Under the pieces are notes generated by a model. It ran no database searches and was not told where the DNA came from. It saw nothing but the letters and a program-made list of their open reading frames with translations. This document shows, one piece after another, positions 3,932-17,121 of a stretch of DNA of 63,992 nucleotides (the first letter of the stretch is position 1; every line of letters starts with the position of its first letter). Origin of the DNA: an uncultured Lachnospiraceae bacterium (GTDB lineage Bacteria > Bacillota > Clostridia > Lachnospirales > Lachnospiraceae); NCBI GenBank assembly GCA_947629565.1, contig CANREG010000006.1, positions 1 through 63,992 on the forward strand, read 5' to 3'. The position numbers and the translations under genes were made by a program.

Positions 3932-4463
3932 CACTTCCGCCCCGCATATATAATGCAGCGTAAGCGGTATCTCCCGATTATCCTTTTTTTGAGTGTCCTC
4001 CACCACAAGGTAATCTTTTCCCAATTTTTCCGACACGCGGTTTTTTAGAAATCCGCCGCCGGGCCGTCCTGCATGAAGCACGTGCGAAGAAGTGTCTGAG
4101 CACCGGGTTTGGGGTGCTGGGCAAACATTATGCAGCCACGCTTGCGCTCTGTCGAAAACGCAACGGTACATAAGCGAAGGCCCTGTTCATTATCTGCTGA
4201 ATAACAGATTGTCGCAGGGCCTTCGCAAGTACCGGCGTTTTCAAAGGGGCTGCAAATGTTTCCCAGCCACCCCTTCCCGGCGCGAGTTCTTCGTAAGCAC
4301 GTGCAATCAAACATGCAGGAGGACCCGGCGGCAGGATTTCTTAAAACCGATGGCAGTGCGGGAAAATGGGAAAGATTATCTTGTGGTGGTTTTACTAAGA
4401 AGAGAGGATAATCGGGAGATATCCGCTGAAAAATGCAATAGGATTGCGAATGGGGCGGAAGTG
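3932..4463. repeat. Giant imperfect palindrome, copy 1 (~532 bp)
   Basis: Two arms of about 250 bases (3932-4185 and 4215-4463) are imperfect reverse complements around a 29-base centre. The outer ends CACTTCCGCCCC (3932-3943) and GGGGCGGAAGTG (4452-4463) pair perfectly. A second pair is CTCCCGATTATCC (about 3971-3983) with GGATAATCGGGAG (4416-4428). The apex is GCGAAGGCCCTG (4174-4185) with CAGGGCCTTCGC (4215-4226). GCACGTGC occurs once in each arm (4078-4085, 4297-4304). The same element occurs inverted at 14345-14875. Open frames inside it (4092-4484 and others) have no homology that I recognise and look accidental. It could be a structured RNA, a mobile miniature element or a very large terminator-like hairpin. 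Confidence 0.9.
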
Positions 4464-4555: not shown

Positions 4556-4630
4556 CGGGGTGTGGCTCAGCTTGGCTAGAGCGCTTGATTTGGGATCAAG
4601 AGGTCGCAGGTTCGAATCCTGTCACCCCGA
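4556..4630 (+). tRNA. tRNA-Pro (TGG)
   Basis: Acceptor CGGGGTG pairs with CACCCCG, discriminator A. Anticodon loop TTTGGGA gives TGG. The T arm GGTTCGAATCC is intact. CCA is not encoded. Confidence 0.97.
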
Positions 4631-4646
4631 CTTTAGCAGATGATAT

Positions 4647-4717
4647 GCGGGTGTAGTTCAATGGTAGAACACTAGCCTTCCAAGCTAGATACGTGGGTTC
4701 GATTCCCATCACCCGCT
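4647..4717 (+). tRNA. tRNA-Gly (TCC)
   Basis: Acceptor GCGGGTG/CACCCGC, anticodon loop CTTCCAA, 71 bases with a short variable loop. No encoded CCA. Confidence 0.97.
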
Positions 4718-4740
4718 TTTAACGGGAGATGTACCCGTGT

Positions 4741-4814
<74 letters not shown>

Positions 4815-4818
4815 CTAT

Positions 4819-4893
4819 GGTGGGTATGGCGCAGTTGGTTAGCGCGCCAGATTGTGGCTCTGGAGGCCAAGGGTTCGAATCCCTTTACCCACC
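4819..4893 (+). tRNA. tRNA-His (GTG)
   Basis: Acceptor GTGGGTA/TACCCAC, with the His-specific extra G(-1) at 4819 opposite C at 4893. Anticodon loop TTGTGGC. Confidence 0.97.
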
Positions 4894-4919
4894 TTCATTG
4901 CCGAGGATGCAGTGAGTAC

Positions 4920-4991
4920 TGGGGTATCGCCAAGCGGTAAGGCACAGGACTTTGACTCCTGCATTCGCTGGTTCGAATCCAGCTACCCCAG
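4920..4991 (+). tRNA. tRNA-Gln (TTG)
   Basis: Acceptor TGGGGTA/TACCCCA, anticodon loop CTTTGAC, discriminator G. Confidence 0.97.
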
Positions 4992-5007
4992 CTGGAACAA
5001 TATTTAT

Positions 5008-5080
5008 GGAGCACTAGCTCAGTCGGTAGAGCACCTGACTTTTAATCAGGTTGTCGGGGGTTCGAATCCCCCGTGCTTCA
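5008..5080 (+). tRNA. tRNA-Lys (TTT)
   Basis: Acceptor GGAGCAC/GTGCTTC with one G-T wobble, anticodon loop CTTTTAA, discriminator A. Confidence 0.96.
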
Positions 5081-5164
5081 CTGAAGAAGCAGCAATGCTT
5101 CTTTTTCTTATTAGAAGGATAACAGAATCAGGCGGTAACAGGTACAACCTGTTATGATCAATAT

Positions 5165-5244
5165 GCGGATGTGGCGGAACTGGCAGACGCGCTAGACTTA
5201 GGATCTAGTGGGAGACCGTGGGGGTTCGAGTCCCTTCATCCGCA
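5165..5244 (+). tRNA. tRNA-Leu (TAG)
   Basis: Acceptor GCGGATG/CATCCGC, anticodon loop CTTAGGA gives TAG. At 80 bases it is short for a class II tRNA but has a compact extra arm. It is the last tRNA of the cluster and its 3' end borders AT-rich accessory DNA. Confidence 0.95.
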
Positions 5245-5266
5245 TTTTGTTTTGCAAAAACAAGGG

Positions 5267-5521: not shown

Positions 5522-5558
5522 AAAGACAAGGCAAATGAGGATACAAAAGGTGAGCCGT

Positions 5559-6545
5559 ATGGATAAATCAAATGGTACGTTAAGTTTATACAGCAGTCTG
5601 CAATTGACAGAACAGATGAAGGGGCTGGATGAAGAAAGTAAGCTGGTTCTTTCTCAGATTCCTGTATTGGCAGTAATATTGAAAAATTGTGTTCGGGAAT
5701 ATGCAGATTATTCTACGAAAGAGATTGAAGGGTTCATTGAGGCAGACAGTATCCAGGTCGAAGAAACAGAAGTCTCTAACAACCGGACAAATACTACAGT
5801 CAAGGGTTCTAATACAGAATTTTCGGCACTGAATGAGATGTTGTCGAAGTTTGATATTTTATTCAATACAGTAAACCCGTTATTATCGGATGAGAAAATA
5901 TTGATTAATCTTCATGTAGATATTGAACCGCAGAAGAATTATAAACCTGGGTATCCTGTGGAGAAGAGAGGGCTGTATTATCTTGCAAGAAAATTGTCCG
6001 CACAGATTCCGGTTGTTTCAGATGATACCAATTATGGTACGCTGGAAAAATGTTATAGTATATGGATTTGCAGGGATAATATTCCGAAGAAGGAGCAATA
6101 TACGATTACAAGATATGGTGTTGGAATATTAGAAGATTCTACCTATACAGATGTAAAGAAAGAGAATTATGATTTAGAAGAACTGATATTGATTCGTCTT
6201 GGAGCAGAAGATTATGACGGTGAAGTAGGATTATTGGATTTCTTAAATATCCTATTTTATCCACATAAAAAAGACTTTGTAAATAAACTGGAGAAATATA
6301 TTGACCTAAGCAGTTATGATGAATGGAAAGAGGAGGCGATGAAAATGAGTGGATTAGCTGAAAGTATATTGGAAGAAGGAATTGAACAAGGAATTGAACA
6401 AGGAATTGAACAAGGAATTGAACAAGGAATTAAACAAGGCAAATTAAATACCTTGATTGAATTAGTTAAAGACGGTTTATTAACAGTGGAGGAGGCTGCA
6501 CAGAGATTACAGAAAAACGTAGAGGAAATTAAGTCCTTGTTGTAG
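5559..6545 (+). CDS. Rpn-family / PD-(D/E)XK nuclease-family transposase-like protein
   Basis: The 328-aa product matches the Rpn-type (YhgA-like) family, annotated as recombination-promoting nuclease or PD-(D/E)XK nuclease-family transposase. The nuclease core signature is visible near 125-150: LINLHVDIEPQKNYKPGYPV, then KRGLYYLARKLSAQ, followed by the typical CYSIWIC and ITRYGV segments. The C-terminus carries four GIEQ units and one GIKQ, encoded by five 12-base tandem repeats at 6378-6437, then a coiled tail (LNTLIELVKDGLLTVEEAA). These tails are common in the family. The start at 5559 has AAAAGGTGAG upstream. The region is visibly AT-richer than its neighbours and follows a tRNA gene, so it was probably acquired. 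It has no operon partner. Confidence 0.85.
   Translation: MDKSNGTLSLYSSLQLTEQMKGLDEESKLVLSQIPVLAVILKNCVREYADYSTKEIEGFIEADSIQVEETEVSNNRTNTTVKGSNTEFSALNEMLSKFDILFNTVNPLLSDEKILINLHVDIEPQKNYKPGYPVEKRGLYYLARKLSAQIPVVSDDTNYGTLEKCYSIWICRDNIPKKEQYTITRYGVGILEDSTYTDVKKENYDLEELILIRLGAEDYDGEVGLLDFLNILFYPHKKDFVNKLEKYIDLSSYDEWKEEAMKMSGLAESILEEGIEQGIEQGIEQGIEQGIKQGKLNTLIELVKDGLLTVEEAAQRLQKNVEEIKSLL
6378..6437 (+). repeat. 12-base tandem repeat coding GIEQ units
   Basis: Five consecutive copies of GGAATTGAACAA, the last reading GGAATTAAACAA. The repeat stays in frame, so copy number changes would alter length without breaking the gene. Confidence 0.95.
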
Positions 6546-12691: not shown

Positions 12692-14350
12692 ATGATTCAG
12701 GTTACAATCGGTGATAAAACTCATGAGGTGGAAGAAGGCGTTTCACTTGAGGAATTAGCGGTAAAGTATGGCACATGCGAAAAAGGGGATATCGTGCTGG
12801 CTTATATGGACAATCACTTATGCGAACTTTACAAGACGGTACAGGAATCTACCGAGGTCCGGTTTGTGTCCACAGCAGAGAAAATCGGATTTGATACCTA
12901 TAAGCGGAGCATGATACTAATGATGATGAAGGCGTTCCGGGATGTGCTAAGAACCAAAGGCGCTACAGGAAGAATCCGGGTTTTGTTCTCTGTCAGCAAG
13001 GGATTTTACTGCGAATTAGAAAGCAGGGAAGTAAATCTTAGCCAGGAGCTTTTAAATGAGGTTGAGGACAAAATGAGGCAGCTGGTCCGGGCAGATATTC
13101 CCATTGTGAAAAATACTTATAAATCCCACGATTTAATGAAGCGTTTTGAAGCGCAGGGCAGAAAGGATAAGGTGCAGCTTTTCAAATACCGCAGGGCATC
13201 TAACGCCAATGTGTACCGGTTAGATGATTTTGAGGATTACTACTATGGATTTATGGTGACATCTACAAGGTATCTCAAATTTTTTGCCCTCTATGCGTAT
13301 GAGGACGGTTTTGTGCTGCAGCTTCCGGCCCGCTCGAACTTAGGGGAAATCGCAGAATTTAATCCGCAGAAGAAGCTGTTTTCCGTATTAAAGCAGGCTG
13401 ACGACTGGGGCGTGATGTTAAATGTGGATACCGTAGGCGGCTTAAACGACGCTATTGCCAACGGGGAGATTAATGACCTGATGTTGGTGCAGGAAGCCCT
13501 GCAGGAGAAAAATATTGCAAAGATTGCCGAGAGAATCTGCAAGGAGGATAAGAAAATTATCTTAATCGCAGGTCCGAGTTCTTCCGGAAAAACCTCCTTT
13601 TCCCACAGACTGAGCATCCAGCTTAGGGCTATGGGAATGCGTCCCCACCCGGTGGCTCTTGACAATTATTTTGTGAACCGGGAGCATACGCCGAAGGACG
13701 AGAACGGCAATTATGATTTTGAGTGCTTAGAGGCGGTGGACGTGGCGCAGTTCAATGAAGATATGATGCGCCTGTTAAACGGAGAAGAGGTCAAAATGCC
13801 CACCTTTAATTTCCTGTTGGGAAAAAGAGAATACAGGGGCAACACTCTGAAATTAGAGGAAAGTGACGTACTGGTTATCGAGGGCATTCACGGCCTGAAC
13901 CCAAAAATGTCAGAAAGGCTTCCGGATGACAGCAAATTTAAGATTTATATCAGCGCATTAACCCAGTTAAATGTAGACGAACACAACCGGGTGGCAACCA
14001 CAGACGGGCGGCTGATCCGCCGGATTGTGCGGGATGCCAGAACCAGAGGCAATACAGCCCAGATGACGATTTCCATGTGGGAGTCTGTAAGGCGGGGCGA
14101 GGAACACAATATATTCCCCTATCAGGAGGAAGCGGATGTCATGTTCAACTCTGCCCTGATCTATGAACTCAGCGTAATCAAGCCCTATGTGGAGCCCCTG
14201 TTATTTGCAATCCCCAAGGACGCAAAAGAATACCAGGAGGCCAAGCGCTTACTCAAATTCTTAGACTACTTTTTGGGCGTCGGCTCCGAAAACATACCCA
14301 ACAACAGTATCCTCCGGGAATTTGTGGGCGGCAGTTGTTTCCCTGTCTGA
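12692..14350 (+). CDS. Nucleoside kinase with N-terminal TGS and ThrRS-like domains
   Basis: A 552-aa multidomain protein: TGS domain at about 1-65, a threonyl/alanyl-tRNA synthetase-like second domain (about 70-250), then a uridine kinase/phosphoribulokinase-type P-loop kinase (IAGPSSSGKTSFSHRLS, near 290). Family members phosphorylate nucleosides such as uridine or cytidine. The exact substrate is not predictable. It lies 27 bases after the Nif3-like gene. Its last codons and stop (14345-14355) form one side of the outermost stem of palindrome copy 2, so the gene end and the element overlap. Confidence 0.9.
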   Translation: MIQVTIGDKTHEVEEGVSLEELAVKYGTCEKGDIVLAYMDNHLCELYKTVQESTEVRFVSTAEKIGFDTYKRSMILMMMKAFRDVLRTKGATGRIRVLFSVSKGFYCELESREVNLSQELLNEVEDKMRQLVRADIPIVKNTYKSHDLMKRFEAQGRKDKVQLFKYRRASNANVYRLDDFEDYYYGFMVTSTRYLKFFALYAYEDGFVLQLPARSNLGEIAEFNPQKKLFSVLKQADDWGVMLNVDTVGGLNDAIANGEINDLMLVQEALQEKNIAKIAERICKEDKKIILIAGPSSSGKTSFSHRLSIQLRAMGMRPHPVALDNYFVNREHTPKDENGNYDFECLEAVDVAQFNEDMMRLLNGEEVKMPTFNFLLGKREYRGNTLKLEESDVLVIEGIHGLNPKMSERLPDDSKFKIYISALTQLNVDEHNRVATTDGRLIRRIVRDARTRGNTAQMTISMWESVRRGEEHNIFPYQEEADVMFNSALIYELSVIKPYVEPLLFAIPKDAKEYQEAKRLLKFLDYFLGVGSENIPNNSILREFVGGSCFPV

Positions 14351-14875
14351 CCCTGTATAAATTTTATCTTTTTGCGGATATCTCTCTATTATCCTTAGAC
14401 GTATATTTGTGAAACCGCCACAGGATAATCCTTTCCCATTTTCCCGCACTGCCATCGGTTTTAAGAAATCCTGCTGCCGGGCCCTCCTGCATATTAGATT
14501 GCACGTGCTCACGAAGAACTCGCACCGGGAAGGGGTGGCTGGGAAACATTTGCAGCCCCTTTGAAAACGCCGGTACTTGCGAAGGCCCTGTAATATCAGC
14601 CATTAAGTGCATGATTAGAGGGGCCTTCGCTTATGTACCGCTGCGTTTTCGACAGAGCGCAAGCGTGGCTGCAAAATGTTTGCCCAGCACCCCAAACCCG
14701 GTGCTCAGACACTTCTTTGCACGTGCAATATGCAGGAGAACCCGGCAGCGGATTTCTAAAAAACCGCGTGTCGGGAAAATTGGGATAAGGATTACCTGCG
14801 GCGGTAGTCCACGAATATTTTAGAGGATAATAGAGAGATATCCGCTTAAAAACCTTGAAACAGGCAGGGGCAGAC
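14345..14875. repeat. Giant imperfect palindrome, copy 2 (~531 bp), inverted relative to copy 1
   Basis: Same two-arm design as copy 1, in the opposite orientation. The outer pair is GTCTGACCCTG (14345-14355) with CAGGGGCAGAC (14865-14875). Next, a 21-base perfect pair runs 14374-14394 against 14825-14845. The apex is GCGAAGGCCC (14579-14588) with GGGCCTTCGC (14621-14630). GCACGTGC lies at 14501-14508 and 14719-14726. Specific matches: 14650-14669 is the reverse complement of 4135-4154, and 14441-14460 of 4345-4364. Frames inside it (such as 14611-14823) look accidental. Confidence 0.9.
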
Positions 14876-15806: not shown

Positions 15807-15856
15807 GCGTCGGCATTCCGATGGGAAATGCATACGCATAGAGGTTATAGGAAAAT

Positions 15857-16217
15857 GACTCAGACGATAAGCCGGGTTATGTCGTTGAATGGTCATCTAT
15901 CTAGGCCGGCTGTTACCAGCGGGCTCAAGCGACCTACCCGAAAACGTGACGGGCCGCCACATTGTTTTCTGTTCGGTCTTGCTTCGGATGGGGTTTACAG
16001 AGCCTGTCCTGTTACCAGAACAGCGGTGAGCTCTTACCTCGCCTTTCCACCCTTACCAGACGAACCCTGCATGGCAGAGAAGACTGGCGGTATATTTCTG
16101 TTGCACTGGCCTGGGAGTCGCCTCCACCGGACGTTATCCGGCATCCTGCCCTGTGAAGCCCGGACTTTCCTCACCTGCAGCCTTTCGGCGTTGCAGCCGC
16201 GACCATTTGTCTGAGTC
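15857..16217 (-). ncRNA. rnpB: RNase P RNA, bacterial class A
   Basis: Catalytic RNA of RNase P, which matures tRNA 5' ends. On the minus strand the 5' end GACTCAGAC (16209-16217) pairs with the 3' end GTCTGAGTC (15857-15865) as P1. The universal GAGGAAAGTCCGGGC core (P4 5' side) follows about 45 bases in, and the 3' core ACATAACCCGGCTTATCG matches the conserved P4 3' side. The length of about 361 fits class A. Plus-strand frames over this region are shadows. Confidence 0.96.
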
Positions 16218-16223
16218 GGGAAA

Positions 16224-16317: not shown

Positions 16318-17121
16318 TTATGAAAGGTCTTCCCGGGTATATTGCAAAATCCGGTCGGAGATGGAAATGGCGTCGTATATGCGGCGGTATTCCTCAGAGG
16401 AATATTCGTTGATATAATTCTTCACGTATTTTTTGCGGATTCCCTTGGCAGATAGTGTGTCTACGGCTTTATTGTATGCGATGGCGGCGGTTATCTTGTC
16501 GGGGTAGCGGCCTACAAGGAAATTTCCCCGTATGTGGATGACACATTCGTACAGAGTATGCGTATCCTGTTCTATGCAGGTTACGCCCATATACTCGTTG
16601 ATGATGCGGATATTTTCATAGCGGAAATCACATTCGTTTTGATTGACAAAGAGATAGTCCTTTCCTTTTTTGGCGTAGCTTTTAATGCCGTAGCGGGACA
16701 GGATGCTGTATTGGCTTCCATAGTCGCAGATAAAATAATAGCCGCCCCGTGTCTGTATTTTGTGGTCTGCATAGAAAAACAAGTCTTCCCGGTCAAAGAT
16801 TAGATACCGCTCCGGGGAGAGATAGTAATAAAAGTATCCGGTCTGTAGATAAATGGGCGTTTTAAAATAGATTCCCGTGTTCCGGTAATTCATAAGGATA
16901 ACAAATTTGCTGAAATCCAGCGCAAAATCACTGGAATAATCCTCTAACCGGTATTTCCCCTCCCTTACGATTGCCACGGCTTCCCGGTAAGCCTGTCCGG
17001 CTTCTTCCTCTGTAGGGAAGCTTCCCAGGCTCACATGTTTTGACTGAATCGTCATGGATGAGCGGTAATAGATTGTCCCGTCTTTCTTGGCTGTTTTTGC
17101 AACCCCTGGCAGATATCCCAT
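16318..17121 (-). CDS. AP2-like DNA-binding protein with two AP2-type modules and an HNH-like remnant
   Basis: Role not known. The 267-aa product begins MGYLPGVAKTAKKDGTIYYR. An N-terminal AP2-like three-strand/helix module spans about 14-50 (IYYRSSMTIQSKHVSLGSFP, then EEEAGQAYREAV). A second, diverged one spans about 190-228 (ECVIHIRGNFLVGRYPDKIT, AAIAYNKAVD). Between them, YENIRIINEYMGV resembles the end of an HNH homing-endonuclease module (ENLRI...N), but the catalytic His residues are not seen. This is the AP2/HNH layout of phage endonucleases without an evident nuclease. It could be a domesticated regulator. The start has AAGGAGGA at good spacing. It is divergent from the 3D-domain gene. 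Confidence 0.7.
   Translation of the reverse strand: MGYLPGVAKTAKKDGTIYYRSSMTIQSKHVSLGSFPTEEEAGQAYREAVAIVREGKYRLEDYSSDFALDFSKFVILMNYRNTGIYFKTPIYLQTGYFYYYLSPERYLIFDREDLFFYADHKIQTRGGYYFICDYGSQYSILSRYGIKSYAKKGKDYLFVNQNECDFRYENIRIINEYMGVTCIEQDTHTLYECVIHIRGNFLVGRYPDKITAAIAYNKAVDTLSAKGIRKKYVKNYINEYSSEEYRRIYDAISISDRILQYTREDLS

Follow-up and report, generated by a model that had tools for sequence, protein, structure and literature searches.

A dispersed non-coding hairpin repeat of Lachnospiraceae with a covarying head and arms probably kept complementary by DNA processes

ERIC/IRU and YPAL are bacterial MITE-like palindromic intergenic repeats. In sections of an account of REP/RAYT systems, a REP is defined as a 20-40 bp palindrome with a GTAG or CGTC tag (PMC3733652). 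Parts of two papers describe a mutational route to palindromes: template switching between the arms of an inverted repeat homogenises the arms and inverts spacers (PMC8604942), and it is able to generate, lengthen, and correct stems as well as to invert loops (PMC8794818).

The two palindromes analyzed here lie in a 63,992-nucleotide stretch of DNA (the window) from an uncultured Lachnospiraceae bacterium and share features with each of these systems. Like ERIC/IRU and YPAL, they belong to a dispersed, non-coding, intergenic, palindromic repeat with tens of copies; unlike these, the repeat reaches ~530 bp, harbors an asymmetric head with a GNRA mini-hairpin conserved across genera, possesses outer stems that are site-specific yet self-pairing, and flips. 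Only in genome G215 does the likeness to MITE-like repeats extend to end repeats and direct target duplications: five near-identical copies of ~266 bp end in GGGTGTCAAAAGCCCTTA-type repeats, and all five fetched copies are flanked by direct repeats of 8-9 bp (ATACTAGGA, CTATAATGA, CCCTATATA, CCTTGTAT, CCCTATTAT), so that the outer boundary in G215 is set by ordinary transposition. Genome G086 contains ten near-identical copies and a divergent one, with end repeats unlike those of G215; in some genera, the head is therefore carried by transposon-like units whose ends differ. No shared end repeat was seen among the window's own long-arm copies, the ends of which are site-specific. With REP/REPIN sequences and RAYT (TnpA_REP), the repeat shares its high-copy intergenic palindromes and, in some genomes, tandem arrays, as in G159, where head hairpins form direct tandem arrays with periods of 164 bp and 187 bp (C59:125301-125726 and C21:12431-12902; L332 and L333). 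In contrast to REP/RAYT systems, its ~98-nt head resides in a longer hairpin, the tag is mostly missing (GTAG or CGTC within the first 12 nt in only 5 of 123 head rows), and 7 of 13 head-rich genomes have no Y1_Tnp match. The seven without a Y1 transposase match (PF01797) are G000, which is 85% complete, G020, G106, G086, G215, G136, and G703; the domain is present in the other six and in all 13 genomes chosen for the absence of the head model R1. A RAYT/IS200 mobiliser was ruled out on account of these seven genomes. The covarying junction with a GNRA loop is reminiscent of Rfam structured RNA families, from which the repeat differs in fitting no Rfam 15 family, in its many copies per genome, and in lacking a fixed gene context. 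Finally, arm homogenisation, spacer inversion, and stem extension are common to this repeat and to quasipalindrome (template-switch) mutation, although the inversions reported in the relevant parts of the template-switch papers concern spacers of a few bases, whereas here cores of ~400 bp are inverted at several dispersed copies.

With a probability of roughly 0.6, we regard both palindromes as members of a dispersed, non-coding, probably once-mobile Lachnospiraceae repeat, the head of which is selected as a single strand while the arms are kept complementary by DNA processes. The features referred to below are as follows.

14345..14875, + strand (element orientation +): copy 2, whole palindromic element
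14345..14404, no strand: copy 2 left outer stem, locus-specific
14805..14875, no strand: copy 2 right outer stem, complement of the left one
14403..14806, + strand: copy 2 conserved core, common to long-arm copies
14549..14678, + strand: copy 2 head with P1, P2, variable tip hairpin P3, and GNRA mini-hairpin (model R1)
14654..14665, + strand: copy 2 asymmetric GNRA mini-hairpin (AGAGCGCAAGCG, loop GCAA)
3932..4463, - strand: copy 1, whole palindromic element, inverted relative to copy 2
3932..3943, no strand: copy 1 outer stem, left, CACTTCCGCCCC
4452..4463, no strand: copy 1 outer stem, right, GGGGCGGAAGTG
4008..4398, - strand: copy 1 conserved core, flipped relative to the orthologue in the sister genome
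4126..4256, - strand: copy 1 head (model R1, E 8e-17 and 1e-17 in two runs)
4139..4150, - strand: copy 1 GNRA mini-hairpin

The stem sequences and coordinates that an earlier note had quoted for both palindromes are correct to the base. In copy 2, GTCTGACCCTG (14345-14355) pairs with CAGGGGCAGAC (14865-14875) with one mismatch, and the next stem, CTCTCTATTATCC (14382-14394), finds its complement at 14825-14837; in copy 1, CACTTCCGCCCC (3932-3943) has its exact complement at 4452-4463 and CTCCCGATTATCC (3971-3983) at 4406-4418. The outer stems thus differ between the copies and pair within each, as had been proposed. The copies are also mutually inverted, as claimed, since positions 4135-4154 and 14650-14669 as well as 4345-4364 and 14441-14460 are exact reverse complements. 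The copy 2 region (551 nt) folds at -306 (+ strand) and -308 (- strand) kcal/mol compared with -161 +/- 6.3 and -165 +/- 6.5 for shuffled sequences, and the copy 1 region (548 nt) at -320 and -305 kcal/mol on the two strands compared with -176 and -166. None of the shuffled sequences is as stable as the real regions, and the palindromic folding of both copies is far beyond chance. The copy 2 head matches R1 with E 4e-17 in one run and 6e-18 in another. A uridine-kinase-like gene (12692-14350, PF00485) runs into copy 2: its 3' end and TGA (14348-14350) form the first bases of the left stem. Other neighbors in the window include an RNase P RNA gene (class A, 314 bits; 15852-16218, - strand) ~1 kb from copy 2, adjoined by a gene for a 267-aa protein (16318-17121, - strand) with no Pfam match at E 0.001; a cluster of seven tRNAs (Pro, Gly, Arg, His, Gln, Lys, Leu; 4556-5245, + strand) beginning ~95 bp past copy 1; and a PD-(D/E)XK family transposase-like protein (5535-6545, + strand) with a tandem run of EQGI near its end and a Pfam score slightly below the cut-off.

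Copies of the repeat are numerous in the window's own genome (G000, 2.63 Mb) and are also found outside it. BLAST with copy 2 yields 65 matches in G000 and 62 in the genome of one sister species (G020), arm-to-arm matches being counted, and R1 yields 52 and 54 matches, respectively. Trained without any long-arm copy, R1 recovers both window palindromes. Among 60 genomes, the own one included, seven match copy 2 in BLAST searches: G000, G020, and five other members of the genus, which match over 37-50 bp only, in other long hairpins with the same tip. Long matches to the core are confined to G000 and G020 among 26 genus genomes. In a named genome collection, all 27 stretches containing a core 20-mer belong to one MAG, CANQMR01 ('uncultured Lachnospiraceae bacterium isolate Lapin-012__bin90'), a count from which the window's own records are possibly excluded. 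A core 18-mer is identical in 45 of 48 copies.

The head extends much further. R1, with strict filters and at most 13 candidates scored per genome, matches 122 of 299 sampled genomes of the Lachnospiraceae family (121 of 298 genera), often with many copies each; the tip pattern matches 8 of the 299, its reversed control none. Five of 398 genomes drawn from the phylum match R1, four in the Lachnospiraceae family (own included) and one elsewhere. Assignment to the Lachnospiraceae is based on the named MAG together with GTDB kinship labels. Genome G703, from another family of the phylum, has eight R1 matches, and its head copies possibly reflect horizontal transfer. By a crude ORF call with sufficient flank, 89 of 92 distinct places lie between ORFs and three inside one. 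Co-directional genes flank 61 of the places, divergent genes 17, and convergent genes 11; relative to co-directional genes, the head points in the same direction 34 times and in the opposite direction 27 times, which is near random. In G000, GCGAAACGC / GCGTTTCGC motifs recur tens of bases outside short-arm copies (flanks of L255 and L267). A plasmid or phage origin was rejected: no plasmid matched, and among phage records the core had no match and the head only three weak ones, to unannotated 'Bacteriophage sp.' entries; an exact core 20-mer occurs in no IMG/VR contig. An exact head 16-mer is found in four IMG/VR viral contigs (L247-L250). Open-access papers searched by title and beginning of abstract, with most subscription papers outside the search, yielded no description of the element, and two head 15-mers were absent from the papers returned by a literature search with head sequence strings. 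The hairpin repeat family is widespread and apparently uncatalogued.

Model R1 was built from 22 loci, eight of them short-arm copies of G000 and none a long-arm copy. The head comprises P1, P2, a variable P3, and a one-sided GNRA mini-hairpin at the junction, together ~98 nt. In the 22-locus alignment, 87.1% of the cells are paired compared with 74.0% in shuffled and at most 43.8% in slid controls, and double-change cells number 101 compared with 38.5 in shuffled controls; further pair types, one of five covariation measures, show no excess (42 vs 42.3 shuffled). In a larger set of 123 matches from 98 chosen sources, giving 111 distinct rows, all five measures exceed the controls: 90.8% of the cells are paired, double-change cells number 760 (219.7 shuffled, at most 169 for any slid structure), further pair types 105 (85.5 shuffled), and changes on both sides occur at 29 of 30 pairs. 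RNAalifold recovers P1, inner P2, P3, and the mini-hairpin unaided, though it misses the outer part of P2. In 108 of the 111 distinct rows, the loop of the mini-hairpin is GNRA; T never occupies its second position. A strand that must fold tolerates G·U better than A·C, while in a double-stranded palindrome the two are one change viewed from either strand. In distinct helices of the head, the ratio of G·U to A·C is 11:2 (P1), 7:1 (P2c), 18:2 (P3), and 2:1 (mini-hairpin), 38:6 in total, on alignment A2, which was fitted to R1 and possibly favors G·U, although P2a/b shows no such excess under R1. The ratio in P2a/b, the poorly aligned part of the head, which behaves like the arms, is 24:52 on A2, opposite to the trend, and 11:11 when realigned. 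With 38:6 over the four helices P1, P2c, P3, and mini-hairpin and ~1:1 in the arms, only part of the head shows strand-specific folding. Judging from these substitutions, the head appears to be under selection to fold as a single strand of one polarity, either RNA or ssDNA, as a strand bias in helices could arise in ssDNA hairpins too. Selection of the type expected for RNA is visible only in this ~98-nt tip, which the earlier note had not isolated. With gathering and E-value thresholds, Rfam 15 gives no credible match to the repeat, only chance-level hits (E 0.25-9). At L163:1109-1251, ~230 bp upstream of a head, a sub-threshold Clostridiales-1 RNA is found (40.9 bits, gathering 48).

Outside the core, the stem sequence differs by locus and is self-complementary within each locus. 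Across 48 copies, orthologues being entered as separate copies, the duplex energy of arms from the same locus at q20-60 is -54.9 kcal/mol compared with -26.1 (sd 8.6) for mixed loci; the values are -28.9 and -17.8 at -20 to +20 and -18.2 and -13.4 at -40 to 0, and there is no same-locus excess at -60 to -20 or further out. The ends of other copies are thus paired as well, on average far above mixed ends. The same holds for 110 R1 matches that have distinct flanks, those of the own and the sister genome among them: in 104, the arms pair better than the 95th percentile of mismatched arms.

That such stems may simply be old targets, the head having inserted into pre-existing palindromes such as terminators or the middles of other MITEs, is an alternative that deserves weighing, although we consider it unlikely. 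It would account at once for self-pairing stems, and it agrees with the heads of G215 and G086, which lie inside elements with their own end repeats, and with the GTAG REP dimers of A. variabilis, located within long palindromes according to part of the published account (PMC3733652). However, stems such as GTGCAGCTTGTATATTCC (L160) do not resemble terminators, paired changes and flips after insertion (see below) are left unexplained, and copy 2 itself points elsewhere. In its G020 orthologue, the right stem contains an inverted copy of the end of the upstream gene (score 15, equaled by 0 of 200 shuffles), whereas in G000 one mismatch reduces this match to a score of 8 (reached by 28 of 200 shuffles). 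For 21 other species of the genus, the sequence downstream of the gene shows no match to its end beyond chance level (at least 9 of 200 shuffles doing equally well); the relatives are only 70-76% identical at this locus. At this one locus, and by comparison with distant relatives, the pattern suggests that host DNA was copied into the opposite arm. Comparison of the two close species revealed no true empty site, the two candidates being deletions of an existing copy; insertion and inverted copying of host DNA were therefore not seen directly. A further proposal, also rather improbable in our estimation, is that a mobile folded head, as RNA or ssDNA, would copy flanking host DNA in inverted form upon arrival or replication, such that each new copy would build a site-specific stem of its own and the hairpin would grow outward with each generation. 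If true, this would constitute a class of mobile elements whose defining feature is that the site is duplicated in inverted instead of direct form.

Changes within the arms were counted in 17 orthologous long-arm pairs identified by flank comparison (at least 15 short-arm pairs were also found), each aligned as four arms over 726 stem columns. Between orthologues, 56 of the 726 columns (7.7%) differ in left arms and 85 (11.7%) in right arms, the latter value being inflated by noise from two pairs with non-matching right flanks (L014 and L020). As the two species differ by 13% (44/339) at fourfold sites in two genes of the window, the stems are not hypermutable, and hypermutability of the arms was dismissed. 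Both arms changed with pairing kept in 19 columns compared with about 2 expected, independence predicting 6.6 columns changed on both arms in whatever way, of which roughly one third would match. The paired changes noticed earlier between copies 1 and 2 are therefore real and general, occurring between loci and between orthologues. Copy 2 differs from its orthologue by two paired changes, and its single outer mismatch is absent from the orthologue. Three stem positions are exchanged between arms in the 17 pairs. By eye, the outer stems of homologous copies in G338 also differ by paired changes.

Nevertheless, the paired arm changes do not look like RNA compensation, because one-sided changes and mismatches favor G·U no more than A·C and because the core flips. 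One-sided changes from a matched pair number 91 (21 G·U, 31 A·C, and 39 other), about five times as many as paired ones. Arms beyond P1 have a G·U:A·C ratio of 102:113 (102 of 110 rows, after removal of the two rows from the window and of six with scores below 24), long-arm outer stems one of 131:135 (48 copies, orthologues counting twice), neither showing a G·U excess; in the long-arm core, the ratio is 138:180, mostly at fixed sites common to copies. This bears on the possibility that the entire ~530-nt hairpin is transcribed and that compensatory changes arise throughout the stem under selection for pairing. Highly stable folds on both strands, paired changes in the arms, and strong covariation in the head speak for such a whole-length structured RNA; it is made distinctly unlikely by the missing preference for G·U over A·C in the arms, by the excess of one-sided breaks over paired changes of ~5:1, by core flips at orthologous sites, and by the near-random orientation to genes. 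Of the two causes that the earlier note had offered for the paired changes, selection for pairing and correction between arms, the latter fits better in the arms, given the one-sided to paired ratio of 91:19, the G·U:A·C ratio of 21:31 among one-sided changes, and inversion of the core in place.

In 6 of the 17 orthologous long-arm pairs, the flanks are unchanged and the core between them is inverted (L002/L045, L006/L044, L010/L054, L012/L053, L017/L059, and L024/L067); loci with swapped flanks (L003, L005, L009, and L011), which may reflect recombination between copies or assembly error, were excluded from this count. L012/L053 is window copy 1 and its orthologue. The two arms do have distinct identities in the core, as had been stated, but the 'fixed design' derived from them fails as a fixed orientation, copy 1 itself being flipped. 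Assembly error is an unlikely source of the flips because exact inverted matches within the copies of the six pairs reach 33 bp at most, which is under the usual read length. Among short-arm copies, L212/L258 is flipped according to match strands and alignment, and at L263/L300 the sister retains only a flipped arm remnant; flips therefore seem to be less frequent in short-arm copies. L008 and L052 share their core orientation, but outer mismatches are swapped at two positions, which suggests repeated inversions with different end points. A DNA inversion switch, in which a site-specific recombinase would act on inverted sites to flip the core, similar to phase variation, accords with the six flips in 17 pairs but is very improbable, given that the flip points lie in stems differing by locus, with no common flip point outside the variable stem (both by eye), and that L008/L052 suggests differing end points.

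The preferred reading, arms kept complementary by DNA processes, can be framed as follows. During replication, a nascent strand would switch template between the arms, so that one arm, occasionally together with adjoining host DNA, is copied into the other; paired substitutions and site-specific stems would result, and a switch that turns the interior around would flip the core in place. Arm correction and inversion as seen here fit the published template-switch signature. The core arms hold fixed mismatches, and arm correction must therefore either not reach the core or be counteracted within it. In E. coli, palindromes with hairpin intermediates undergo inverted rearrangements without SbcCD and RecA, according to part of one study (PMC3315005). 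SbcD scores above the curated cut-off in 16 of 26 genus genomes; G000 and G020 have only weak relatives, which others have too. The lack of an SbcD above the cut-off may allow long palindromes in these two genomes, which is only a hint since the other eight genus genomes without above-cut-off SbcD give no long core match (G014 has one 41-bp match).

Compensatory base changes are usually read as proof of a functional RNA. Because an apparently RNA-like head coexists in it with arms whose paired changes emerge in the absence of strand-specific selection, the repeat constitutes a natural test bed for distinguishing these two sources of compensatory change by counting G·U versus A·C. It shows arm correction and inversion of a ~400-bp core between two species, and it adds to the Lachnospiraceae a high-copy structured repeat, present in 121 of 298 sampled genera of the family and missing from Rfam 15, whose head may be the functional or mobility-linked part.
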